From positions 1-46,013 of the IMG/VR virus record IMGVR_UViG_3300044980_000068: a stretch of 46,013 nt of DNA; one strand, given 5' to 3'. Shown here piece by piece: positions 32,184 to 46,013 of the stretch. The notes under the pieces were generated by a model, which was given only the letters and a program-made list of their open reading frames with translations, was not told the origin of the DNA and made no database searches. This stretch comes from a virus. How positions within the stretch are numbered: the first letter of the stretch is position 1; every line of letters begins with the position of its first letter. The position numbers and the translations under genes were made by a program.

Positions 32184-32248
32184 CATAATAAGTAGTAAAC
32201 ATGGAGATGGAATGTTGCAAGTCGTAGGGATAAATTGGAAGGTTGGAA

Positions 32249-35200
32249 ATGGCAGATCCCAGGTTTCAGACTTTTAGCTCAAGTCTCCAGGACGCGGGAC
32301 TTGTCGCCCGGTACGCGAACGATCGCGCGCCTGATAAGAGCTTTGTCAATTTGCGAAACCTTGAGGCGCGGCAGGAAAACGCTATCAGCTCGCGCTTTGG
32401 CCGCAAACTTCTTACAACGAATTTGACGAATAATTTTCCGTTGCCGGGGCCGGTTCACACTCTCGCGCGCTTGAAGGCGTTGTTTGGGAATACCTACCGC
32501 TATGCGATGTCGGGCACGGGACTTTATCGGGCGACCGGCGATAATCCGCAGCAGTTTTTGCAAATAAATCAGGATCATCTTTTCAGCGGAAATCGTGTAA
32601 CGCCGATGGTTTACCGCCCGGATTTTTCATCGGTGCCGTATATGTTTTTTGCCGATGCGTTGCAGATGTTGAAGGATAACGGAACATTTTCAGATACAGG
32701 GACGGTGCCGACACAACAATGGGGAATATTTGCGCCGACAATTCCGCCAACGCTTGAGCTTGAGGCCACAGCATATTCGCCGTTTGACACTTTTGAGTTG
32801 AGCGAGTTCTCTCCGCCAAGTGTTTATTCCTACTCGAATCTAACTGGTTTGTCGCCGGTTACGATCGCTGCTGCGCCAACTGGCGCGGTGCGGATCTCGT
32901 TTTTTGGGCCGTGGCAGGTCACGATTACGACGACTTCTCCGCATGGCTTTGTTGTTGGTCAAGCGGTCACGATGGAAAATATTACCGATGCGAGTTTTGA
33001 TGGGACGTACATCATCGCGACAACGCCAAGCCCGACTACGTTTACTTATCTTCAGAACGGAGCTTTTGCCCCCGCGACCAGTGGAAGTGGAACGGTTTCA
33101 CTTCGATTGGTTCCGATAGTTTCCACGAATCTTCCGACTGGGATTCCCGCGGCTGGTGTGACAGCGGCAGTTCCGGCGAGCATGGCAAACATCGTAGTCG
33201 GAATGATTTTAGATATTGATAGCGGTGCTCAGTTTGAACAGGTGTTGGTAACAGCGATCACGGGAATAAACTTCACGGCTTTTTTCACAATGGCTCATGC
33301 GGCCGGAACGAGTGTGATTGTCAATTCAAGTCAAGGCACGGTTGCGGCGTCTACAGTCGCTACGCTGACGCGAGTGGGTGCTTTGGATTTGAGTGTCGTT
33401 GACGGTGCGCCGGCGCCACCTGCGACGACATACATAAACTTTTTTGCTGGTTTTGATGTGCCAACAAATGTATTTCCATTTGAAATCTTGTTTGATGTTG
33501 GAGACGGAAGTTTTACGGATACTTATAGCCGGGTGTACACACCGACTGCATTTGGACTTCAAAATTTCTTTGCACAGGCTGGATATACAGAAAATGGAAA
33601 GGCTGGACAGATCGGCCATACCTGGGCGGATGTGACAGCCTATCGGATAAGCATTACGACGAGTGGGCCGGTACAGTTCACGCTCGCGAGTATGTATCTT
33701 ACTGCTGCTGGTGGCCCTGATTCGAGTACTGGCGGAACATCTCCTTACGATTATCGCTATACGTATTTCAACATCAACACGGGTGCGGAATCGAATCCGT
33801 CAACGGTGTTGGCTGGAGATAATTTTGTTTCTCCGGTGATGCAGCCAATTCTTATTACGTGGACGGCATCTCCTGATCCGCAGGTGACTCACGTTCGTAT
33901 TTATCGGCGTGGCGGCACGCTTAATGATGGATGGTTGCGTGTTGCTCAAGTGCCGATTGGCATGACGTCCTACGTGGATAACTTTACGGATGCGGATATT
34001 GCGTCTGCGACGCCGCTGGATATCGACAACGATGTGCCGGTGACGAGTACCCTGTCTGTGCCGATTGATATTTTCTTGCAGGCTGGAGTAACGATTCCGG
34101 CCAACGAAGTTACGACCGTAGTTTTTACGGGTGCCGCAAGCACGGTTGTTTTTTATCCGAATCAGCAAGTGACCGTGGGCACTGAAGATAATCAGGAAGT
34201 GGTTTATTTGATTGCCGGCGGCACTGGACAATTCACCGCTTTTTTCCAGAATGATCATGAACCGGGGGCTGAATTTACAGCCAGTACGCGATGTGGAACG
34301 CCGGTAAATTTGGGGGCGATTGCGTATCAGCAGGCGTGGCTTGCCGGCGATCCCGCGAATCCGCATATTCTTTATTATTCAAAGCCGGAAAGCCCGGAAG
34401 CGTTTCCGCCGGAAAACACACTTGAAATTGGGACACCTGATCAGCCGATTATGGCGGTGATTTATTTCAGTGGTCAGCTTTTTGTATTCACAACGGCGAC
34501 GGTGTGGCTCATATTTGCGCCGGGGCCGAACATCCCGAATCCAATTCCAACTGGTGTGCGGCATGGCTTGGCGTCCAATTTTGGATGGGCCGCGGTTGAA
34601 GGTGGCTTGATTTATTACCAGTCTTTCGACGGAATTTATGCGTGCCAGGGTTTTGGTTCAACTTATATCAGCAAGGCAATTGAGTGGTTGCCGCGCGGCG
34701 ATAATTTGGGGCCGGTACTGCCATACGATTTGACGCAGCTAAATAATGTGCTCATGGCGTTCCGGCAGAACGAAGTATTTGTTTCCTATCCGCAAATTGG
34801 CGGCGGGCAGGGGCGCATTGCATTCGATACGACGTATCAGCGGTGGCGGAATGACGATGTAGGCGCCACGGCGATGCTCAACGAGCGCGACACGGACAAT
34901 CTGATCATCGGATTGCCGAATGGAAATGTGTACATCGATCGCGTGGGAGATTTTGACGACGGTGGATATGCAGGTGGAGTCCAGACAAAGATTCCGATTG
35001 CCTTTAATTTGCAGACGCCGGCAATGGATCAAAACTTCCTGAAAAACGAGAAGGTCTATCAGGAATTGACGTTGGACATCAACACAAACGGGCAAAACGT
35101 CACGGCCACATTGCTTTTTGATAACGGCCAAACGGTAGTGCCGATTTCCACGACCATCAATACTTCCGAGCGTGGGCAAGTGTGTCTGAATATTAATCAG

Positions 35201-35668
35201 GGTGCAGGCCAGCGATCGTTGAACGTGGCGTTGCTACTTACCGCGTCCGTAACGCAGGTTGTTGATTTATTTGAGTATCACATTCGTGCGGAAGTGGATG
35301 CCGAGCGCCGGCAGTCTTTTGACACCTATTGGCAGAAGTACGGCACGGATGAATGGAAAATGATGAAACAGGCGTGGCTTGAGTACGAGACGCCCGGCGG
35401 TCAGCCGATCACGTTCAATGTTTATTTCGATGGCAGCGCGACACCGAACACGCAGAATGGTTTTCCATTTACATTGCCGGCGGTAACTTTACGGACAACG
35501 AAGCGCTTGCGGTTTCCGCCCGTGAAGTTTAGTACAGTGAGGTTTATTGCCACGTCTCCGGGGGATTTCAAAATCTATACGGAGAGTTTCACGGAAATTA
35601 AAATGATTGCTCACGACAAGGGCTACTTCAAGTCGAAGCTGGATGATGCGCGGCCACAGGAGCAATAA
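32249..35668 (+). CDS. Large tail protein, tubular B / nozzle-like
   Basis: 1139 aa. GGAAGG lies upstream of ATG 32249. The chain is almost wholly beta. It opens with GRKLLTTN, ARLKALFGNTYRYAMSGTGLYR and contains blade-like repeats (VAYQQAWLAGDPANPHILYYSKPESPEAF, FSGQLFVFTTATVWLI, YFQSFDGIYACQGFG, VFVSYPQIGGGQGRIAFDTTYQRW) typical of the beta-propeller tail nozzle family of T7- and P22-like phages. Ig-like insertions sit in the first half. It would form the distal tail tube. One imperfect palindrome lies within it (34572-34587). Confidence 0.5.
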   Translation: MADPRFQTFSSSLQDAGLVARYANDRAPDKSFVNLRNLEARQENAISSRFGRKLLTTNLTNNFPLPGPVHTLARLKALFGNTYRYAMSGTGLYRATGDNPQQFLQINQDHLFSGNRVTPMVYRPDFSSVPYMFFADALQMLKDNGTFSDTGTVPTQQWGIFAPTIPPTLELEATAYSPFDTFELSEFSPPSVYSYSNLTGLSPVTIAAAPTGAVRISFFGPWQVTITTTSPHGFVVGQAVTMENITDASFDGTYIIATTPSPTTFTYLQNGAFAPATSGSGTVSLRLVPIVSTNLPTGIPAAGVTAAVPASMANIVVGMILDIDSGAQFEQVLVTAITGINFTAFFTMAHAAGTSVIVNSSQGTVAASTVATLTRVGALDLSVVDGAPAPPATTYINFFAGFDVPTNVFPFEILFDVGDGSFTDTYSRVYTPTAFGLQNFFAQAGYTENGKAGQIGHTWADVTAYRISITTSGPVQFTLASMYLTAAGGPDSSTGGTSPYDYRYTYFNINTGAESNPSTVLAGDNFVSPVMQPILITWTASPDPQVTHVRIYRRGGTLNDGWLRVAQVPIGMTSYVDNFTDADIASATPLDIDNDVPVTSTLSVPIDIFLQAGVTIPANEVTTVVFTGAASTVVFYPNQQVTVGTEDNQEVVYLIAGGTGQFTAFFQNDHEPGAEFTASTRCGTPVNLGAIAYQQAWLAGDPANPHILYYSKPESPEAFPPENTLEIGTPDQPIMAVIYFSGQLFVFTTATVWLIFAPGPNIPNPIPTGVRHGLASNFGWAAVEGGLIYYQSFDGIYACQGFGSTYISKAIEWLPRGDNLGPVLPYDLTQLNNVLMAFRQNEVFVSYPQIGGGQGRIAFDTTYQRWRNDDVGATAMLNERDTDNLIIGLPNGNVYIDRVGDFDDGGYAGGVQTKIPIAFNLQTPAMDQNFLKNEKVYQELTLDINTNGQNVTATLLFDNGQTVVPISTTINTSERGQVCLNINQGAGQRSLNVALLLTASVTQVVDLFEYHIRAEVDAERRQSFDTYWQKYGTDEWKMMKQAWLEYETPGGQPITFNVYFDGSATPNTQNGFPFTLPAVTLRTTKRLRFPPVKFSTVRFIATSPGDFKIYTESFTEIKMIAHDKGYFKSKLDDARPQEQ
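34572..34587. repeat. Dispersed palindrome, copy 13 (14/16)
   Basis: CGTCCAATTTTGGATG, inside the large tail protein gene. Confidence 0.7.
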
Positions 35669-36237: not shown

Positions 36238-36493
36238 AGTTGTGGCGCAAAATGAAGACCGCAAGGCTGGCATGTGGACGTTTACCGTCCGCGTTGTTGT
36301 TGGCATGGATAGCGGAAATTCCGAGACAGGCCCGGAAACTGTAATCGGCATCAGTAACGCATCCCTGAATGATCTTTATGGAGGGGATGCTGAGAAGTAT
36401 TTGTTGAGCATTAAGGATGAGCTGGTTCGAGACTTTGAGGTTGCGCGTGCGCTTCGCGCGAAGGTTGGCACATTAAAGGGGAGACGACTTTGA
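36221..36493 (+). CDS. Small hypothetical tail-region protein
   Basis: 90 aa from TTG 36221, overlapping the previous gene by 17 nt. A short beta/alpha chain (MWTFTVRVVVGM, LNDLYGGDAEKYLLSIKDELVRDFEVARALRAK). No motif recognised. Confidence 0.5.
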   Translation: MQTQLEVVAQNEDRKAGMWTFTVRVVVGMDSGNSETGPETVIGISNASLNDLYGGDAEKYLLSIKDELVRDFEVARALRAKVGTLKGRRL

Positions 36494-37083
36494 GCACTGA
36501 CACCGTTACCAATCCCCCGAACTGGAAATATCAAACCGACGACGTTCTGTTGCTGCCCTACGCTTCGGAAAACTTTCCTGATTCGTTGCTGCCTGAACTT
36601 TACATGATGTGCAAGCGCGACAAAACGATTGGTCTGATTTTTCCCGGACAGCCGAAAGTTGGTATGGGTGAATTTTGCGCTGCGCTTTGGGATAAGCCGT
36701 TATTGATTGGAATTTCCAAAGAGGAAAAGAAAATCTTGGGTTTTGCATGGCTGCATTCTGTTGAGGGTACGGAAAACGCGAGAAAGGGTGCGCTTGGTTT
36801 TGCATGTTTTCGAGAAGGGTGGGGTCGTCGCCGCAATCCGAAGATGGGACAAAAGATTCGCGAATTGACACGCTTGGCGCTTGGCTGGTGGTTTTGTGAA
36901 TTAGGGGTGCAGATTTTGTACGCAAACACATTGGCGACGAATCGGTTGACACAGGCTTTTGTGTCCGAATTTGGATTTAATCGCATTGGAACATTGCCGA
37001 AGTTTTTTTCGCGTGATGGTGCGTTGGTGGATTCGGTTTTGTTCTGCCTTGATCGCGATGCGTTTATGGGAGGCGCTGGATAA
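36490..37083 (+). CDS. GNAT-family acetyltransferase-like protein (gp13-like position)
   Basis: 197 aa from TTG 36490. The second half has a GNAT core: beta strands ILGFAWLHSV and ILYANTLATNR, the helix LTQAFVSEFGFNRIGT and the closing LPKFFSRDG. A protein of this fold (T7 gp13-like) is encoded at the same place in podoviruses, just before the ejection proteins. A canonical acetyl-CoA P-loop (Q/RxxGxG/A) is not obvious, so it may act structurally in the virion. A weak palindrome (36962-36977) lies in the SEFGF stretch. Confidence 0.6.
   Translation: MSTDTVTNPPNWKYQTDDVLLLPYASENFPDSLLPELYMMCKRDKTIGLIFPGQPKVGMGEFCAALWDKPLLIGISKEEKKILGFAWLHSVEGTENARKGALGFACFREGWGRRRNPKMGQKIRELTRLALGWWFCELGVQILYANTLATNRLTQAFVSEFGFNRIGTLPKFFSRDGALVDSVLFCLDRDAFMGGAG
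36962..36977. repeat. Possible degenerate palindrome, copy 15 (12/16)
   Basis: TGTCCGAATTTGGATT within the GNAT gene. May be a decayed copy or chance. Confidence 0.35.
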
Positions 37084-37718
37084 TGGGCGGACCTTCACAG
37101 TCAACGGAAACTACGCAGAATAATCTCACAACCGCCGAAACAAATTTGGCGAATACTGAGAATTCTAATGCGCAAACTTTATTTGGTGAGAGTAATCCTG
37201 GATTCCAAACAGCCGAAAATTATTATCAAGGACTTGCAAGCGGAAATCCTGCTGAAATTTTCAAACTAATTTCTCCGGCAACTTCGCAGATTTCCCAGCA
37301 GTCGGCAACGGCTGCGAATCAGATTAAACAGAACACGCCACGGGGTGGCGCGCAGAATCTCGCGCTGGCGCAGAATGATATTACTAAGGCTTCGCAAATT
37401 GGAAACCTTGCAACATCAGCGTATACCAGTGCGTTCCCTGCATTGGCGCAGATTGGTGGGTCTGGAATTGGATTAAGTACGGGACAGGCCAATACCGCCA
37501 TAAGCGGATTGAATGCGGCTAGTTCTAGTAATCAGGCTTTGGCATCGCAGCAGAATGCAGCAAAGGCTTCTACGATGGGATTCTTGGGGTCATTGGCTGG
37601 TGTTGGTGGATCATTGGGTGGTGCTGCACTCAGTGGTGGTGGAGCTTTAGGTGCTTCTGCGTTGGGTAAGCCGGGCACCAGTAGTGCGATACCTTCGGGC
37701 ACTACGGTACCAGGATAG
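37083..37718 (+). CDS. Internal virion protein B-like ejection protein
   Basis: 211 aa. Gln/Asn/Ala-rich helical chain (TTAETNLANTENSNAQ, QISQQSATAANQIKQNTPRGGAQNLALAQNDITKASQIG) ending in a Gly/Ala/Leu-rich hydrophobic stretch (GFLGSLAGVGGSLGGAALSGGGALGASALG). Small ejection proteins such as T7 gp14 have this make-up: a helical body and a membrane-inserting tail that forms the outer-membrane pore. Confidence 0.55.
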   Translation: MGGPSQSTETTQNNLTTAETNLANTENSNAQTLFGESNPGFQTAENYYQGLASGNPAEIFKLISPATSQISQQSATAANQIKQNTPRGGAQNLALAQNDITKASQIGNLATSAYTSAFPALAQIGGSGIGLSTGQANTAISGLNAASSSNQALASQQNAAKASTMGFLGSLAGVGGSLGGAALSGGGALGASALGKPGTSSAIPSGTTVPG

Positions 37719-37720
37719 GG

Positions 37721-37736
37721 CGTCCAAATTTGGACG
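37721..37736. repeat. Dispersed palindrome, copy 16 (exact)
   Basis: Exact, with the 18-mer exact; it fills most of the 27 nt between the stop at 37718 and the start at 37746. Confidence 0.95.
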
Positions 37737-37745
37737 CCGAAAATT

Positions 37746-39578
37746 ATGCCATCGAGCGGACAATCACTCGCACCACCGATGAACGCGCCGGAGCTACCAC
37801 AGGCTCCGCAGGGGGATACCCTTACCCCTCCGCCTACCCGTCCGCCTGAACCAATGCCGCGCGATGCTGGCGCTGGAGGAACAAGGGCTGGAATTCTCAA
37901 CGTCGCCGCCAACTTCATGCAAGGTTGGATGGGCGCGGTAAACAAAAGCGTTCAGCAAAAACAAATTGCCGCGAATCAGGAAGTTGCGAACGCACACGCG
38001 AATCTAACTTCGTCGTGGGTGAATTTTGAGAACGCGGCGAAAGATCCGCGTATCCCGTCAATTCAGAAAAAACTTCAAGGACAGGCACAGGCGGGTAGTG
38101 CGTTACAGCCAATTCTCACGAAATTCATGTCTGGTCAGCAACTTACGGACGACGAGCAAAAAGCGATTCAGGATTTACAGCAGCACGCGCTCGATCCGGA
38201 CGAACAGGCCGCACTTGCGAAATACCAGTCGGCGCAATCGGCATATCAGGGCGCGGCGTCGGCGTTTAAGAGTACTGCCGCGAAGTTTGTTGCACCGGAT
38301 CAACAGGGTGGTGGCGGGGTAAAGGGTGCAGCAAAGAAAGTCGGCAAGCAATTAACCGGCGGTGGATTGCCGGAATTTATCAGTTCGACTTATTTGAAGT
38401 CGCTGGATGCGTTGCCGCAGATGACGCCAAGTGGTGCCGGGCCGCGGGAACAGATGGAGCAGGGCCAGCTTGATGAATTCAATGCTGGTGCGTCTACGCG
38501 TAAAGCCGAACAGGATTTATTGAAACAGGAAGTGGATTTGCGTACCCAATTATCAAAGGCGGTCGCAGATCCAAATACATCAACGGATGAAGTGACTCGC
38601 CTTTCTGATCAGCTTGCCGCAGTACAGGGCAAGATTCGGACGCCGGGTGAAAAACTACAAGACACGCTCGCGAACACTGGAATTGGCGCACTCTCGAAGA
38701 TGAATGCAGGGACGCCAATTAAGGATATGACGCCAGCGGAACAGTCTTTTATTAATAAAACGTTTCCGCGTGACATCCCCACAAATATGTTCCAGATGTT
38801 TATGAAGCGGGCGAACGATGGTGAGCAGATTAAAGATCCGAAGACCGGCCAAATGCGGGCGTACACGACCGACGACGCGATGGCGGATAACGCGAAGTGG
38901 GAAGCCCGAATGCGCGCCGTTGAACGAGGGCCAAATGCAACACAGGAATTAATCAACGAGCTGAATACGCTCGCGAAGACGATTTATCCGAATGCTTCAA
39001 AAGAAGACCAGGCGAAGTGGGTTGCCGATCGATTGCGTCCATCGCCACAAGATAAGGCGGATGCGAAACCCGAAGATGTTAAGCCGCCAGAGGCGAATCG
39101 CTTCACACAATCGTCGCTATATTCGATGGTGCAGAATCATCCAGAATTATCGTATCTCGTTACCCATGATCCTAAGACCGGATATAAAATGTCGGACGCG
39201 CCGGATGTTGGTTCGCATTGGTTCTCAAAAGATGACCATCCAAACCCGGCAGGTGATCGCTTAAAGTTTATGGATTTGTGGGCGCAAGAATTGCAGAAGC
39301 GGGGCGCGCCGTCTGGATTTATTAAAGCAACGACAGGCGTTGACGTTGCGGCGCAAGGACAGGGCCAACAATTACAGCCGCCACCGAATAGCAATACACA
39401 GACCACAACGAATCAGCCAGCGAAGCCAACGGGAGCGGCGCAAAACGGGCAAATTAATTACTACAAAGGTGTCCCATATAAATTTGTGAATGGTCAGGGG
39501 TGGGTGAAGCAAAAGCCGGGAGTGACACCGCCGCCCGCGCCGGCCGCTGGTGCGCAACTACAGCCACCGCCGGGATAA
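37746..39578 (+). CDS. Internal virion / ejection protein
   Basis: 610 aa. ATG 37746 follows a palindrome; a ribosome binding site is weak. Mostly helical (residues ~45-300: long Gln/Ala/Lys helices) with a Pro-rich start (APPMNAPELPQAPQG) and a C-terminal short motif YYKGVPYKFVNGQGWVKQ between QLQPPP-type linkers. Position and composition match the second ejection protein (T7 gp15-like role). It would enter the host with DNA. Confidence 0.5.
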   Translation: MPSSGQSLAPPMNAPELPQAPQGDTLTPPPTRPPEPMPRDAGAGGTRAGILNVAANFMQGWMGAVNKSVQQKQIAANQEVANAHANLTSSWVNFENAAKDPRIPSIQKKLQGQAQAGSALQPILTKFMSGQQLTDDEQKAIQDLQQHALDPDEQAALAKYQSAQSAYQGAASAFKSTAAKFVAPDQQGGGGVKGAAKKVGKQLTGGGLPEFISSTYLKSLDALPQMTPSGAGPREQMEQGQLDEFNAGASTRKAEQDLLKQEVDLRTQLSKAVADPNTSTDEVTRLSDQLAAVQGKIRTPGEKLQDTLANTGIGALSKMNAGTPIKDMTPAEQSFINKTFPRDIPTNMFQMFMKRANDGEQIKDPKTGQMRAYTTDDAMADNAKWEARMRAVERGPNATQELINELNTLAKTIYPNASKEDQAKWVADRLRPSPQDKADAKPEDVKPPEANRFTQSSLYSMVQNHPELSYLVTHDPKTGYKMSDAPDVGSHWFSKDDHPNPAGDRLKFMDLWAQELQKRGAPSGFIKATTGVDVAAQGQGQQLQPPPNSNTQTTTNQPAKPTGAAQNGQINYYKGVPYKFVNGQGWVKQKPGVTPPPAPAAGAQLQPPPG

Positions 39579-39580
39579 CG

Positions 39581-39596
39581 CGTCCAAATTTGGACG
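39581..39596. repeat. Dispersed palindrome, copy 17 (exact)
   Basis: Exact, with the 18-mer exact, in the 27 nt between the stop at 39578 and the start at 39606. The flanks match copy 16. Confidence 0.95.
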
Positions 39597-39605
39597 CTGA
39601 AAAAT

Positions 39606-42600
39606 ATGCCCGACACACAAAATCCCGTAGCCAATCCACCTGATACCCTACCCGCGAGCTTTACCGGGTGGGATGATCAGTCGAAACCCGCTGCGCCCGC
39701 GCAAACGCCGCCTGCAGCTCCGCTGCCGCAAGCTCCTGATACGCTTCCCGCCAATTTTAGTGGATGGGATAAACAGCAACCTGCCGCGGCGACGCCCGTG
39801 CCGCTTCAACCGGGCGAGCGCGATGCGATGCTCGCACAACTGAAAAAGTGGGGCATTTCCACTCGCCACGATCCGAACACGATGTCGGATGATCAGTTCA
39901 AACAGGAATTTGATCGCGTTTCGGCCACGATGCAGCAGCCGGTAAGAAAGTTTTATTCAACGAATTTCTCTCGTGATGCTGGCCCGCTTGGACAGTGGTT
40001 TGATAATCATGTTGCCGCGCCGATAGAAAAAAGCTGGCAGGAACATGCAGACCATCCTGAAAATTTTACAGGACCAGCGGCGGCATACAATCTACCGCAC
40101 GCATTGAAGGAACTGCATGAAGGTTCCGAAAAATACGTCGCGCCAGTTGTTGAAGCTGCACTAAATGATCCGTCTCTTTTAGCTCCTGGCCCCGCACAAA
40201 CCGGACGATGGACTGCCGCCGCCATGCAGTACGCGAACATGACGGACGAAGATCGCAAGCATGTTGGTGACGACATTGCTGACACGCATCCGTGGATGGC
40301 GACATTTGAAAAACGATACGGACAGGCCGCGCATACAGCATCGAAGGGGATTGTTGACGCCGCAACCGATCCGGTGAATTTGGCGTTGATGGTGGGAAGT
40401 GGTGGCTTGGCGGATGTGGCGCCGCTTGCCAGCTTCGCGATGGATACTTATTTTCAAGGCATGATGGCGAAGGGGACTTACGATTCATCTGTTCATGCAG
40501 GAAAAGCGTTGGCCGCTGGTGATATGGATAGTTTTTTTGGAGATCTTGGCTCTATTCCGATGCAGGCTTATTTTGCCAGCCACGGGATAGACGGCATCGG
40601 CGAAAAAATCCGCACGATTAGTATGACGCACGCAGTTGATACTACCGCGCAGGAAACCTTCGGAAAGCCGTTTACGGACTTGCAGTTGGACGAAAAACAT
40701 CAGGTAGTGCAGGGGGTTTTGAAAACCCTTTCGTCGCCGAAGTACGTTGAGTTCGCGCAGAATTTAATGGCAGCGGAACAAGCAAAAGATTCAGGGAAAA
40801 TTATTAATGCTTATCAGCAACTTATGGCGCAAGAGGGGCCGGAAGTACCCGACACGCTGCGCGACCGGGCGGATACCCTGCTGCAATACAATCGTGCGCG
40901 CGGACTGAATACCAATATGGCGGAAGCGCCGCCGCATCTTGTTAATTTGTATCAGGCGTTGGGTGAGGGTTCGCTAGCGCGGAGGATTTCCGACGAGGCT
41001 GCGCGGGATGTTCAAGAGGGCCAGCTTACCCCGCCGCCGTCCGCGATCGAAACCGCCGCGGACCAGCAGACCCAGAACCTACTCGCCGAGCGTCGACGCG
41101 CTGATGTCAATCAAGCCGTCCAAGATATGCTTGCTGGAAAGACGCCGGTGGTTTACGACGATGAGGTTCGCGCTCGCGTGGAACGCGCGACGGAGCAAAG
41201 CAAGCAATCGCTTGATGCGCGCCTGAAACTCGAGAATGATAAGGGCACCGCGCAGTCTGGAATAGCCCAAGCTAAAATTGAGGCAGACGCCGCACGCGAG
41301 AAGGCCGCGGGCGCGGGATTGACACCGCCGCCGATGGCTGACGAAATTGAGCGGTTGCGCGAGCGGATTGAACAGGAAGCCGATAAACAGGGCGTGGAGG
41401 GTGTCAGGGACTTAGGGCGACGTCAGGGCGGGCCAGAGGGTACGCCAGCTTTATTGCCGTCTCCGGCCTTCCAAGCGCCGCCTGTGCCATTTCTGGGGGG
41501 TTCACCGCTTACTCCAGAGCAAAAGTTCGCCGAGGCCGAGTCCGAAGCGTGGAAACTGGTGCATGAGGGCCGCGCCCAAGACGCCTTGCAGCTCTTGGCA
41601 CAGTACGACGAGTACTTGCGCGAGCAGCCGGACGCGCGTGCACAACGGTTTCAGGATCAGACGCGCGGCGAAATGCAGCGGTTGGCCGACGCTTCTTTGG
41701 CTGAAGAAGAGCGTTTGACAGGCGAACGTGGGTTTCGTGATGTTGGACGAAAACAGGGAGACTTTGAAAAATCTCCGCAGGTTATTGAGTCACCTTTAGC
41801 AGAGGGTGGAGCTGTTGAGCATCTTTCTAGTAAGAATGGATTTAGGTTTGAAGGTAGGGCTTTAGAAGACATAGGAAAACATCTTGATCTGGACTGGAAT
41901 AGCGTTGGGCCGCTTGGTTCTTATGAAATACGTGTGTTGAATTCTGCGGGAGAAGAAGTTGGTCATGTTTTAATTGGACTGGGCGCAGATGGTAAAGCTT
42001 CTATAAGTGATTCTGTGATTAATGAAGAGTATCGTCGGCAAGGACTTGGAAAAGAGGCGTATGAGCAAGCTATTAAAATAGCCCAAAAATACGGTGCTAC
42101 CGAAATTCATTCAGGTGTTTTGGGTACGTCTGACAAGGCTGCGGCTGTCTGGAGATCTTTAGGGAAAAAATACGATCTTCGTGATTTGAGCAGCGAAGGA
42201 AAAAACAAGTTTTTGATAAAACTTAAAGAAGATGTCGGCACTACTCCGCCGCCTCTTCAGGAGCCGGGCGCGGAGCGCACGCTGACGCCGCCATTGGCGC
42301 CTACAGAGGCACCAAAGACCGAGCCAGCCAAGAAAGCCACCTTCGAGACGCCGGGTACTGTTACTACCTTACCGCACAAGATTTCAGGAGAGGGCGAAGC
42401 AGGTGGTACGGCGACTGCTACAAGGCAAGGTATTCCCGTTGCGTGGGGAAATCGCGGCACGGTAGTTACACCAAACAATCGCCGCGTCGAGTTCCAGTAC
42501 GCGATGGTGCCCGCCCAAGCGGTTGTCACGTCTTTTGATAGCGCGTTCAATGTAAATCCTGATATTCCCGCAGGATGGCAACCGCGTGAGCGTGGCCGTG

Positions 42601-45600
42601 CGGCCAGCCAAGACCAGTTTAATTCAATGCTGACTCCCGGCGAGGGGCAGTTGGATGCTCACCGCATGGCGGAAAGTCCAAACGCCGGAGACGGTGCTCC
42701 GATCGTTACTCTGGTAAAAAATCCAGATGGTACTACCACAATAAAAGCCATTACACGGCACATGGGAGCTACCGTCGCAAAGACGGCATACGAAAGAGAA
42801 AGCCCGATAGCGGCACAGTTTAAGCAGGACACTATTGATTCCGCGTCCAAATTTGGACTCGCAGACGCGAATATTGACCATCCAATGTTGGTGCGTTTCC
42901 TCAAGACGGACATGAGTGACGCCCAGATTGCTTCCTTCGCGCAAGAGGCGAACGTTTCTACCACGGCACGCATGGGGGCGGTCGAGACGGCAAAGGTAGA
43001 CGCACAGAAGCTCACGCCGGAGGTTATTGGCCTGTTGCAGCCAACCGATGACGGCAGCCTGAATAACGTCGCCAACGCCGACTTTGTGCGCGCCTTTGTG
43101 GACTCAGTGGCTTCGCCAAGCGAGCGCGGCGCGCTGATGACCAAAGAGGGCCAGGTATCGGTCGAGGGACTGGCGCGCATCCGGAACGCGCTGTTCGCCA
43201 AAGCCTACCCCGGCGCCAGTGAAATCACCGAAATGGCTCTGGAATCGCCTGACATCAACATAAAAAACGTCAAAAACGCGATGGATGCCGCGGCGCCACG
43301 GTTCGCACAGATGCAGGATATGATCGACCGCGACGTGCTGTACGACTTGGGAATTACTGAAGATATTGGCGACGCCGCGAAGAAACTGTCCGAATTGCGG
43401 AAGACCGGGCGCAGCGTTGAGGATTATCTGGGGCAGATCAATTTGCCGGGTGCTTCGGATATGTCGGATGCCGCGCGCGAGTTGTTGCGCGCAATCAACG
43501 AGAAAGGTCGTAGCGTAAAAGGATTGACGCAGATCTTATCGCAATATGCCGATGTGGTGATGGACCGTGGGCGCAAGGATCAAATTGGAATGTTTGGCGC
43601 GCCGGGCACGCCTGAAATTTCAAAGGAAAGCGTGCTTCGTTCTGTTGTTGGCAATAACTCGCTGATTGATTTTGGCGACGAAGCACCGGCACCATTGCCC
43701 GAACCCGCACCAGCGTCGAACAAACTCACGCCGCCGCCCGCCGCTGAGAAACTTACTCCGCCGCCTTCGGCAACGCACATTGAGTTCCCGGCCAGTCGTG
43801 AGATTCAGCCGAACGCGGCCGATGTCGATCGCCACAAGGAAATGCTGAAGGGACTCAACGCGAAGAAAGTGGCACAGGAAGTGGTTGCCGCGAAGCGCGA
43901 CGAACGGCACATGGTTGACCAGTACGACAGGATTCGCGACGGTGGAATTGGGGCCGTCCTTAATACTTTCGATGGAAGTGAATTACGCGGGATGTTGGAA
44001 GGTGACGAAAACGTTGCCGAGATGTCAGATTCAGAATTAGAAAGCTACATAAGAGAAAATCAGGACGAAATCATTCATGGTTTGCTGACTAATTTACAGG
44101 ACAGCATTTTCGAGACGCGCGCGCGTGAGCGTGCTGCATCAGGATTGAGTGGGAAAACCGCTGGTGAGTTGGAACCACCGCCTGCTGTAGAGCCACAAAC
44201 CGTGCAGGTTGAAGCCGCGCGTCCAAATTTGGACGTGGAAAAACAACCCGAACAGTTCAAGGCCAAAAATAAAGGTGGCGTCGCTTCTATCGTTGTTACT
44301 GCTGACGGGCGTGAAGTTGTGGCTAGCGACTATTCCAAAGAGTTCACCAAAAAGAATCGTGACAAGCTAATCGCCCGGACGGGAAGCTCATCCGAGCCAA
44401 TGATGTTGGTGGACGAAAACGGTAATGTGTTGGCGCAGTCCGCGGCGTGGAACATGCGGCAGGAATCGAAGTCGCCGGCCGAGACGCTGCAGGCGATGCC
44501 GGATACCGATCTGAAGGCCAAGATGGATGCCGCACGCGGAAGTTTAGCTGAAGCTAAACCCGGTAGCGCGATGCACAACGATATGGCGTCATACGCATCG
44601 CGTCTTGAAGATGAACTAAAGCGTCGCACAGATCTTGAAGCGCAACCGACTGGTTTTGGTAGCCGCAACACGATTGTTACCGAGGACGAGAAAGACGAAA
44701 TTATCCGCCGGCTGACCAGCGGCCAGCTTCAGTCGGGCTTGCCGATTGATGACATCGCGAAACTCGGAATGTACTACTTCGAGGCCGGCGCGCGCGAGAT
44801 TGGCGCGTGGACGCAGCAAATGGTCAAGGCGCTTGGCGAAGTGGTGCGTCCATATTTGGACGAGGCATGGAAGCGAATGCCGGATGTGGCAAAGACCGTC
44901 GCGGAAACCAAACTCGCAACGGCCGATGACGCCACACGCGAGAAAATAAATTCAGAACTTGATGCAGTCGACAAGAAACCGGAGGTGTTGAATGGCGCAG
45001 ATACCGCCCGACCCGTGGGAACAGCGAATGATGTGGGAGTACAAAATCAAGGACGTGGAACAACTCCGCCGGATCTTGCAGCGCCCGCCAAACCCGAAGT
45101 TCAGCCAGCGAAGCCAGCAGCCCGACCAGTCCGACCAGGAGACGGAACTGGCACAGCCCCAAGACGATCTCCAGTCGCTATCCAACTTGATGCCCCCGCC
45201 AGAGTACGAGGGCAGTGGGTTGTAGACGTGGACAAATGGAAAGCGGAATTGCGCGCGAACGGATTGCCGGAGTCAGCGCCGGGGCCAACCGTCACATTAT
45301 CGCCCGACGTGGACAAGATGCTCGTCTATCGCCCGCAAAAGCCGATCGTGGAAATGGCGCTGTCCGAGCTTGAGCATGGTTCTGGTTCATTTGTTGTGGG
45401 GGCCAGTACCGGCACGGGCAAGAGCTATGTGGGTGCGGCGATTATTAAAGAAACTCTTGACCGTAATCCCGGCCAACAATTCGTTGCGTTCCTTACAAAG
45501 AATCAAGATTTAGTTCGTGACATGAAGAATACATTGGCTGAATTTGGAATTGAAGGCATGGAGTTTCCATCCGGAGTAAGCGCGCCGCCGGAACCAGGTG

Positions 45601-46013
45601 TGTACGTCACGACGTATGCCACGCTTCGCAACCGACCGGGGATGGAAAACTTCCCGTGGAATCTTTCGGTGTATGACGAAGCCAGTGAAATGCGGAACTG
45701 GCAAAGCAGTCAGCAGGGAGCAAAGGGCCGCGTCATGGGCCGCAGCTCCGAAAAGAATCTATATCTCTCCGCCACGCCGTTTTCAAATGCGATTGACTTG
45801 GGGTACTTGGACTCTCTTGGATTGTGGAGTAAGCAAGGCTTTGAAACCTTCGCGAGACAGTTTGGCGTCACCGTTGACAAGCAAACGGGAATGCTCGCCG
45901 GCGGTAATGCGCCTCTGAAACTTGCCGCGTTCCGTGAACAGCTTATCCAACGCGGACAGTTTGTGAATCTGGACACGGATCTTACCGGCCATAAATTCTC
46001 GGTTGGTATCGCG
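39606..46013 (+). CDS. Giant polyvalent protein: GNAT, DdrB/ParB-like and SF2 helicase (3' partial)
   Basis: 2136 codons with no stop before the window end. The N-terminus has two repeats PDTLPASFTGWD / PDTLPANFSGWD, then a helical region. A GNAT domain lies at about residues 750-860 (EEYRRQGLGKEAYEQA, then AAVWRSLG). A DdrB/ParB-like region spans about 950-1310 (VEFQYAMVPAQAV, GWQPRERGRAASQDQ, PSERGALMTKEGQVSVEGLARIRNALFAKAYP), without the usual GNGR signature. From about 1890 there is a superfamily II helicase with Walker A GASTGTGKS (from residue 1933), Walker B YDEAS (2023-2027) and motif III SATPFS (2055-2060), resembling strawberry-notch/DarB-type phage helicases. LTPPP-type linkers separate domains. 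Placed directly after the ejection proteins, it is probably packaged and injected, like P1 DarB. Three palindromes lie inside. Confidence 0.8.
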   Translation, partial: MPDTQNPVANPPDTLPASFTGWDDQSKPAAPAQTPPAAPLPQAPDTLPANFSGWDKQQPAAATPVPLQPGERDAMLAQLKKWGISTRHDPNTMSDDQFKQEFDRVSATMQQPVRKFYSTNFSRDAGPLGQWFDNHVAAPIEKSWQEHADHPENFTGPAAAYNLPHALKELHEGSEKYVAPVVEAALNDPSLLAPGPAQTGRWTAAAMQYANMTDEDRKHVGDDIADTHPWMATFEKRYGQAAHTASKGIVDAATDPVNLALMVGSGGLADVAPLASFAMDTYFQGMMAKGTYDSSVHAGKALAAGDMDSFFGDLGSIPMQAYFASHGIDGIGEKIRTISMTHAVDTTAQETFGKPFTDLQLDEKHQVVQGVLKTLSSPKYVEFAQNLMAAEQAKDSGKIINAYQQLMAQEGPEVPDTLRDRADTLLQYNRARGLNTNMAEAPPHLVNLYQALGEGSLARRISDEAARDVQEGQLTPPPSAIETAADQQTQNLLAERRRADVNQAVQDMLAGKTPVVYDDEVRARVERATEQSKQSLDARLKLENDKGTAQSGIAQAKIEADAAREKAAGAGLTPPPMADEIERLRERIEQEADKQGVEGVRDLGRRQGGPEGTPALLPSPAFQAPPVPFLGGSPLTPEQKFAEAESEAWKLVHEGRAQDALQLLAQYDEYLREQPDARAQRFQDQTRGEMQRLADASLAEEERLTGERGFRDVGRKQGDFEKSPQVIESPLAEGGAVEHLSSKNGFRFEGRALEDIGKHLDLDWNSVGPLGSYEIRVLNSAGEEVGHVLIGLGADGKASISDSVINEEYRRQGLGKEAYEQAIKIAQKYGATEIHSGVLGTSDKAAAVWRSLGKKYDLRDLSSEGKNKFLIKLKEDVGTTPPPLQEPGAERTLTPPLAPTEAPKTEPAKKATFETPGTVTTLPHKISGEGEAGGTATATRQGIPVAWGNRGTVVTPNNRRVEFQYAMVPAQAVVTSFDSAFNVNPDIPAGWQPRERGRAASQDQFNSMLTPGEGQLDAHRMAESPNAGDGAPIVTLVKNPDGTTTIKAITRHMGATVAKTAYERESPIAAQFKQDTIDSASKFGLADANIDHPMLVRFLKTDMSDAQIASFAQEANVSTTARMGAVETAKVDAQKLTPEVIGLLQPTDDGSLNNVANADFVRAFVDSVASPSERGALMTKEGQVSVEGLARIRNALFAKAYPGASEITEMALESPDINIKNVKNAMDAAAPRFAQMQDMIDRDVLYDLGITEDIGDAAKKLSELRKTGRSVEDYLGQINLPGASDMSDAARELLRAINEKGRSVKGLTQILSQYADVVMDRGRKDQIGMFGAPGTPEISKESVLRSVVGNNSLIDFGDEAPAPLPEPAPASNKLTPPPAAEKLTPPPSATHIEFPASREIQPNAADVDRHKEMLKGLNAKKVAQEVVAAKRDERHMVDQYDRIRDGGIGAVLNTFDGSELRGMLEGDENVAEMSDSELESYIRENQDEIIHGLLTNLQDSIFETRARERAASGLSGKTAGELEPPPAVEPQTVQVEAARPNLDVEKQPEQFKAKNKGGVASIVVTADGREVVASDYSKEFTKKNRDKLIARTGSSSEPMMLVDENGNVLAQSAAWNMRQESKSPAETLQAMPDTDLKAKMDAARGSLAEAKPGSAMHNDMASYASRLEDELKRRTDLEAQPTGFGSRNTIVTEDEKDEIIRRLTSGQLQSGLPIDDIAKLGMYYFEAGAREIGAWTQQMVKALGEVVRPYLDEAWKRMPDVAKTVAETKLATADDATREKINSELDAVDKKPEVLNGADTARPVGTANDVGVQNQGRGTTPPDLAAPAKPEVQPAKPAARPVRPGDGTGTAPRRSPVAIQLDAPARVRGQWVVDVDKWKAELRANGLPESAPGPTVTLSPDVDKMLVYRPQKPIVEMALSELEHGSGSFVVGASTGTGKSYVGAAIIKETLDRNPGQQFVAFLTKNQDLVRDMKNTLAEFGIEGMEFPSGVSAPPEPGVYVTTYATLRNRPGMENFPWNLSVYDEASEMRNWQSSQQGAKGRVMGRSSEKNLYLSATPFSNAIDLGYLDSLGLWSKQGFETFARQFGVTVDKQTGMLAGGNAPLKLAAFREQLIQRGQFVNLDTDLTGHKFSVGIA
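42844..42859. repeat. Dispersed palindrome, copy 18 (15/16)
   Basis: CGTCCAAATTTGGACT in the ParB-like part of the giant gene, read as ASKFGL. Confidence 0.85.
44220..44235. repeat. Dispersed palindrome, copy 19 (exact)
   Basis: Exact, inside the giant gene in a Pro-rich linker (read as RPNLDV). Confidence 0.95.
44847..44862. repeat. Dispersed palindrome, copy 20 (15/16)
   Basis: CGTCCATATTTGGACG in the giant gene, 612 nt after copy 19 (read as RPYLDE). Confidence 0.8.

Follow-up and report, generated by a model that had tools for sequence, protein, structure and literature searches.

Giant polyvalent proteins, multidomain products of genes that adjoin those of the virion, have been surveyed by Iyer et al. 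(2017, PMC5512222; cited here and below from part of its text), who propose that they acquire their domains singly, in response to pressure from host defences. GNAT, DdrB-ParB and SNF2-like helicase domains are all listed among the polyvalent domain classes of that survey, which already describes two GNAT families and cites a strawberry-notch-type helicase protein to its GNAT figure panel. In phage P1, DarB is incorporated into the head with the help of DdrB, itself a virion head protein, and a reporter reaches the capsid when it carries no more of DarB than its first 30 residues (PMC9024508). The virion module of the podovirus JC1 ends with the gene for gp69, a DarB-like protein of 4,515 amino acids (aa), and mass spectrometry of purified virions identified this protein by 51 unique peptides (PMC9144972). 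Here we describe a giant gene of this kind at the end of the IMG/VR virus record IMGVR_UViG_3300044980_000068, analysed over its whole length of 46,013 bases and hereafter called the window (last readable base, 46013). Its product belongs among the known polyvalent proteins of DdrB/DarB type, yet it is not a DarB. It combines a recently captured GNAT domain, a DdrB-like ParB region that has lost the arginine of its active-site pocket, and an SF2/SNF2-like helicase. Every one of these domain classes is known, as is the presence of ParB and helicase in one giant (phage Y7); what sets this protein apart is how the domains are combined, that the ParB pocket is lost and that a recent capture can be seen.

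The open frame starts with an ATG and continues for 2,136 codons without a stop until it runs off the end of the record, an event with a chance of ~8e-45 at this composition. It lies downstream of the portal, capsid, SU10-type adaptor and internal-virion-like genes, with ejection-type genes directly upstream and a gene order conserved in relatives, and it codes for three unrelated domains (GNAT, ddrB-ParB and SF2 helicase), each above its Pfam cut-off. These results agree with the preliminary description of this DNA, which had announced a stop-free frame of at least 2136 codons, a protein of the polyvalent phage class and a location right after the internal virion genes; the domain search of the whole protein that it had called for matched the ParB and helicase parts above the curated Pfam cut-offs. 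No phage matched the window at the DNA level. In tblastn searches of a phage collection, matches were found only over about residues 943-1358 (25-33% identity) and corresponded to P1 DdrB and to further ejection or giant proteins of DdrB type, with DarB itself unmatched. Pattern searches of IMG/VR with the whole protein or its helicase part, a method that detects close relatives only, found no close relatives.

The GNAT domain, whose presence had been claimed from the start, is matched by Pfam Acetyltransf_1 (PF00583) at residues 780-853 with an expectation value (E) of 7.8e-8 (33.0 bits, cut-off 20.7). Since a first AlphaFold2 model of 676 aa was poor outside the domains (mean predicted local distance difference test score, pLDDT, 54.7), only its GNAT part was used. 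There, a complete GNAT fold was predicted although no related GNAT backed that part of the model, and the acetyl-CoA motif Q/RxxGxG/A is present as RRQGLGK. The model matches 3lod (VIA Z 12.6, root-mean-square deviation 3.0, 120 residues), and every structural match listed for it is an acetyltransferase or a GNAT domain, among them RimL and further protein acetyltransferases.

This domain is a recent in-frame insertion, as follows from its contrast in third-position GC (0.30 in residues 725-885 vs 0.60 before and 0.63 after) and from its absence from the nearest relative, labelled G001, and from 39 related records. A scan for changes in GC placed the best change-points around an AT-rich segment (Table 1); the log-likelihood gain was 31.7, whereas 200 codon shuffles reached 14.1 at most. 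The G001 giant is ~45-51% identical on both flanks and has no GNAT between them; because residues 611-719 still align with it, the left edge of the insertion is uncertain (696-720). PF00583 was detected in none of the 39 related records, control genomes all being matched, and among ten other DdrB-ParB phages it occurs as a separate small gene in three and was undetected in the rest. An embedded GNAT is thus uncommon in the records compared, as had been proposed, although the domain class as such was already known in polyvalent proteins (PMC5512222). A foreign read joined into the contig during assembly would likewise change the composition sharply and create a joint found in no relative. Such an artefact appears very improbable, given that the insertion is in frame, contains no stop, falls within a low-conservation linker and ends with the domain, and that both flanks align with G001. 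The gain of the GNAT is recent enough to show in the DNA, and the window and G001 form a before-and-after pair which lets one ask what a virion-delivered acetyltransferase adds.

The next region had been described as DdrB/ParB-like but devoid of the usual GNGR signature, and it proved to be so on both counts. Pfam ddrB-ParB (PF18763) matches residues 957-1098 (E 2.7e-8, 34.4 bits, cut-off 27.6), and DdrB-type PHROGs families extend over residues 947-1347. A structure model of moderate quality (pLDDT 69.9), with modest Z values, is closest to ParB, Noc and KorB (Z 5.3-6.6) and next closest to sulfiredoxin (Z about 4), whereas unrelated proteins remain at Z ≤3.1. Both the ParB/Srx fold and the profile match that characterize DdrB-like ParB are therefore present. 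The pocket, however, is degenerate. Where P1, Y7, Y11, Piluca and TPWB-05 have ESGNGR, the window has ITRHMG, G001 has LTRNMG and G017 has GGNMRS. The motif TRHMGA of the window (residues 1050-1055, nucleotide 42753) is preceded by a longer hairpin, and Gly1054 stands in the position of the pocket arginine that Iyer et al. (PMC5512222) call highly conserved in DdrB-like ParB. Tyr1062, invariant in nine family members, may be the conserved tyrosine of the extra helix meant in PMC5512222. Because the rest of the region is conserved (53% identity with G001) and the model still matches ParB best, the loss is specific to the pocket: the arginine is gone and the fold is kept. The region probably acts in binding or scaffolding and not as a nuclease or NTPase.

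The ParB region of P1 DdrB is ~28% identical to that of the window, and the match extends over the helices that follow the ParB fold (a helix-turn-helix-like part after this fold was not established). P1 DdrB differs by its ESGNGR pocket, by a C-terminal metallopeptidase (Iyer et al., PMC5512222) and by being a protein separate from DarB. The loss of the pocket suggests that this DdrB-type domain needs no nuclease or NTPase chemistry to function, a point relevant to the way in which P1 DdrB assists DarB in entering the head. Homologs of the ParB region are also encoded by Piluca, TPWB-05 and ctype202, in genes of ejection type, and a search of IMG/VR with a profile of the region returned only G001 and G017. 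The available text of PMC5512222, in which phage GNATs usually neighbour an ART domain, mentions no protein that has a GNAT beside a helicase and a DdrB-ParB without its pocket and that lacks both methylase and metallopeptidase.

Helicase similarity starts at about residue 1877 and is found in every giant compared. As had been read from the sequence, Walker A (GASTGTGKS, starting at residue 1932) and SATP (2055) are present, together with DEAS at 2024. Pfam ResIII (residues 1907-2011, E 7.3e-8) and AAA_34 (1928-2084, E 1.4e-7) both exceed their cut-offs, and the PHROGs DNA helicase families phrog_62 and phrog_16 cover residues 1858-2093. The claim of an SF2 helicase stands for the RecA-like domain 1, the only one visible; the C-terminal half was seen in complete relatives, with Helicase_C or Helicase_C_4 in two and a QxxGRxxR motif VI in most. 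The proposed likeness to P1 DarB holds for the SNF2-like helicase and its virion-gene context, but the ParB part is DdrB-like and the N6-adenine methylase carried by DarB has no visible counterpart: up to residue 2136, neither a Pfam methylase profile N-terminal of the helicase nor an NPPY-like motif was detected, and no methylase was found in the complete relatives (2,955-3,828 aa). In the giant of the Pseudoalteromonas phage vB_PalP_Y7 (4675 aa), too, one polypeptide carries ddrB-ParB and, after it, a ResIII-type helicase; that giant differs in having an Eco57I-type methylase, an intact ESGNGR pocket and an ART domain and in lacking a GNAT. In the Burkholderia phages JC1 and Bcep22, the DarB-like giants (gp69 and gp75) also end the virion module and a solo acetyltransferase lies a few genes upstream; there, however, the GNAT is a separate gene, and a search of the phage collection with the window protein brought up neither JC1 nor a Bcep22-like phage.

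Relatives were collected through the capsid protein of the window, which led to 58 related loci in IMG/VR, some of them on contigs of 80-108 kb. Among the 22 records tested, 9 have a giant homologous to that of the window, with complete frames of 2,955-3,832 aa, and in every case where the flank is comparable its gene follows the same cassette in the same position. As ~1,090-1,180 residues in relatives lie beyond the point where the window ends, the full-length protein is predicted to have the size given in Table 1. The giants of the same virus group (G001, G017, G005, G008, G012, G013/G014, G018 and G019; those of G013 and G014 have the same length and termini) have the cassette, the N-terminal domain and the helicase in common with the window, but no GNAT. 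Six distinct ones (L073, L074, L075, L076, L077 and L078) bear a zincin-like HExxH ahead of the helicase and a weak or no ParB match, whereas the alternative, a clear ParB region, occurs in the window, G001 and G017; no HExxH peptidase motif was found in the visible window protein. In G016, the place of the giant is taken by a 731-aa protein (L116:3855-6050) in which no similarity to the giants was detected but which has a tandem N-terminal motif, DPSKVKLV.

Such motifs are also a feature of the window protein, whose first 65 residues carry PDTLPASFTGWD and PDTLPANFSGWD in tandem. The tandem motif lies within a 24-residue repeat (residues 7-30 and 39-62) and reaches a self-alignment score of 80 vs a maximum of 53 in 200 shuffles. 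Short N-terminal motifs in 2-3 copies, scoring above all 200 shuffles, occur in L072, L073, L074, L077 and the 731-aa protein of G016; the motifs of these five proteins and of the window are unrelated in sequence, each protein having its own. Such a motif opens most giants of the group. The N-terminal domain further downstream was recognized in nine giants by an iterated profile seeded with three of them (E 6e-36 or better). Given that P1 DarB has an N-terminal capsid-targeting signal, a role of the tandem motifs in packaging is plausible by analogy, and they represent a putative packaging signal open to test.

We favour, with moderate confidence, the interpretation that the window protein is a polyvalent counter-defence protein of a short-tailed-type phage, packaged in the virion and co-ejected from it. 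We infer packaging and co-injection from the position of the gene and from the cases of P1 and JC1. The tandem motif and the shared N-terminal domain would direct the protein into the head, and it would be ejected together with the phage DNA. The pocket-less ParB region would then probably serve as a binding or scaffolding part, while the SNF2-like motor would translocate on the incoming DNA and hinder host restriction enzymes, as proposed for P1 DarB, a protein that shields injected DNA in cis from type I restriction. The captured GNAT would most likely acetylate a host protein at the start of infection.

This last step has a rival of its own, which leaves the others untouched: the GNAT might modify DNA, for example nucleobases, as Mom of phage Mu does, or small molecules such as polyamines, instead of host proteins. 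The nearest solved sequences are indeed spermine/spermidine acetyltransferases (E 5e-4), and the best NCBIfam match is PaiA, far below its cut-off. We nevertheless regard such substrates as rather doubtful, since matches this weak are typical of any GNAT, RimL and other protein acetyltransferases fit the fold equally well, and the polyvalent GNATs were placed in a RimI-like clade by Iyer et al. (PMC5512222). A GNAT acting in counter-defence has a precedent in AcrVA5, which acetylates Cas12a (PMC9114340).

The location within an ejection cassette would also suit a giant that is mainly a structural ejection protein, forming part of a channel or core, with vestigial or accessory enzyme domains. 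The degenerate ParB pocket, the family ParB regions in ejection-type proteins of Piluca and ctype202, and the slot of G016, filled by just 731 aa, all fit this idea. It is nonetheless unlikely, since helicase motifs I, II and III are intact in the window, the helicase similarity extends to all giants compared and the freshly inserted GNAT retains its acetyl-CoA motif. Helicases are common replication proteins, and the giant might be made after infection and work, unpackaged, in phage replication or transcription. This appears quite improbable for a gene placed among late virion genes, a position conserved in relatives, and with homologs in the virions of P1 and JC1, even though the evidence for packaging in this virus is limited to that position and to the analogy with these two phages. 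The latter limit also weighs against the packaged counter-defence protein that we favour, together with several other points. The mechanism of P1 DarB cannot be transferred in full because the methylase is missing, and the visible part of the protein ends at residue 2136, with helicase domain 1 only, the C-terminal half lying beyond the record. Self-alignment revealed no N-terminal tandem motif in the giants L075, L076 and L078, and the motif of G001 is borderline (4/200 shuffles). Searches of phages, plasmids, IMG/VR and genome contigs, of which those by pattern detect close relatives only, found no donor or homolog of the GNAT that could point to its substrate. Finally, the giant is dispensable in the group, since G016 has in its slot a 731-aa protein that showed no similarity to the giants.

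The same variation allows a more tentative proposal, which we hold to be possible but not the likelier outcome: the gene may be a cargo slot, in which a fixed N-terminal packaging region, made up of the short tandem motif and the shared domain, delivers a payload that changes by in-frame capture of domains. This idea comes from the GNAT captured here, from relatives with a metallopeptidase-type motif or with neither, and from the 731-aa protein in the slot of G016, which keeps a tandem motif. If it is true, the motif could serve to load foreign proteins into such virions.

Table 1. Features of the giant gene and its surroundings in the window
Feature	Position	Strand	Remarks
Giant polyvalent protein open reading frame	39606..46013	+	2136 codons, 3' end open; predicted full length about 3220-3320 aa
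N-terminal tandem motif PDTLPA[SN]F[TS]GWD, putative packaging signal	39639..39776	+	residues 12-23 and 44-55
Conserved N-terminal domain	40218..40814	+	about residues 205-403; common to all giants examined
Segment immediately preceding the insertion or forming its start	41436..41764	+	residues 611-719; 45% identity with nearest relative G001
AT-rich inserted segment	41691..42233	+	best change-points, residues 696-876; GC change-point scan
Embedded GNAT domain	41832..42227	+	residues 743-874, motif A RRQGLGK at 810; Pfam and AlphaFold2 model
DdrB-like ParB region	42414..43715	+	about residues 937-1370; Pfam, alignment, structure model
SF2/SNF2-like helicase, RecA-like domain 1	45234..46013	+	motifs I, II, III; ResIII, AAA_34, DEAD; phrog_62, phrog_16
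18-bp perfect palindrome GCGTCCAAATTTGGACGC	39580..39597	.	14-bp core ending 10 nt upstream of the ATG of the giant
610-aa neighbour directly upstream of the giant	37746..39578	+	occupies the place of ejection-type genes in relatives
211-aa conserved cassette protein	37083..37718	+	41-54% identity in G001, G017, G005, G019, G013, G016
Solo GNAT-like cassette gene, separate from the giant	36490..37083	+	Acetyltransf_3 E 0.0014, below cut-off
1141-aa internal-virion-like protein	32243..35668	+	phrog_511 internal virion protein, E 3.3e-9

In relatives, the ejection cassette consists of the internal-virion-like protein (present in 13 of 18), the solo GNAT-like protein (retained in 11 of 13) and the 211-aa protein, then a protein of ~500-640 aa before the giant. 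The 610-aa neighbour of the window is 27% identical over 434 aa to its counterpart in G001, with weaker similarity in G017 and G016. The solo GNAT-like gene is unsupported as the source of the embedded GNAT, the two sequences differing around the acetyl-CoA motif and PF00583 matching the embedded one only. Annotated GNAT genes also occur near the DdrB-type genes of Piluca, TPWB-05, ctype202 and Y3.

The palindrome GCGTCCAAATTTGGACGC is dispersed throughout the window, with 17 sites at ≤3 mismatches vs 0.05 expected. The positions listed are 1873, 3302, 3688, 5271, 8839, 12595, 16028, 17673, 18479, 26624, 29280, 31150, 34571, 35913, 37720, 39580, 42843, 44219 and 44846. The palindromes are specific to lineages: GTCCAAATTTGGAC in the window, GTCCATATATGGAC in G001, G002, G023 and G024, CTCCAAATTTGGAG in G017, and GTCCCAATTGGGAC with variants in G016, while most other relatives examined have no such palindromes. 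At three of them (37720-37737 and 39580-39597 in the window, 5655-5668 in G001) the 14-bp core ends exactly 10 nucleotides before a start codon; the one in G001 precedes the G001 giant and differs from those of the window in its centre. They are possibly operators of a phage regulator with changing specificity. The idea that they are loading sites for the ParB region of the giant is weakened because G016 carries such sites and no ParB-type giant was found in it.

At its start, the record carries an RNA repair pair, an RNA ligase (phrog_562) and a polynucleotide kinase (phrog_505), at window positions 2-892 and 893-1786. A related capsid gene (69% identity) occurs in a single cellular record, L121, a 4.9-kb contig of an Acidobacteriota metagenome-assembled genome, which gives a weak hint at the host.

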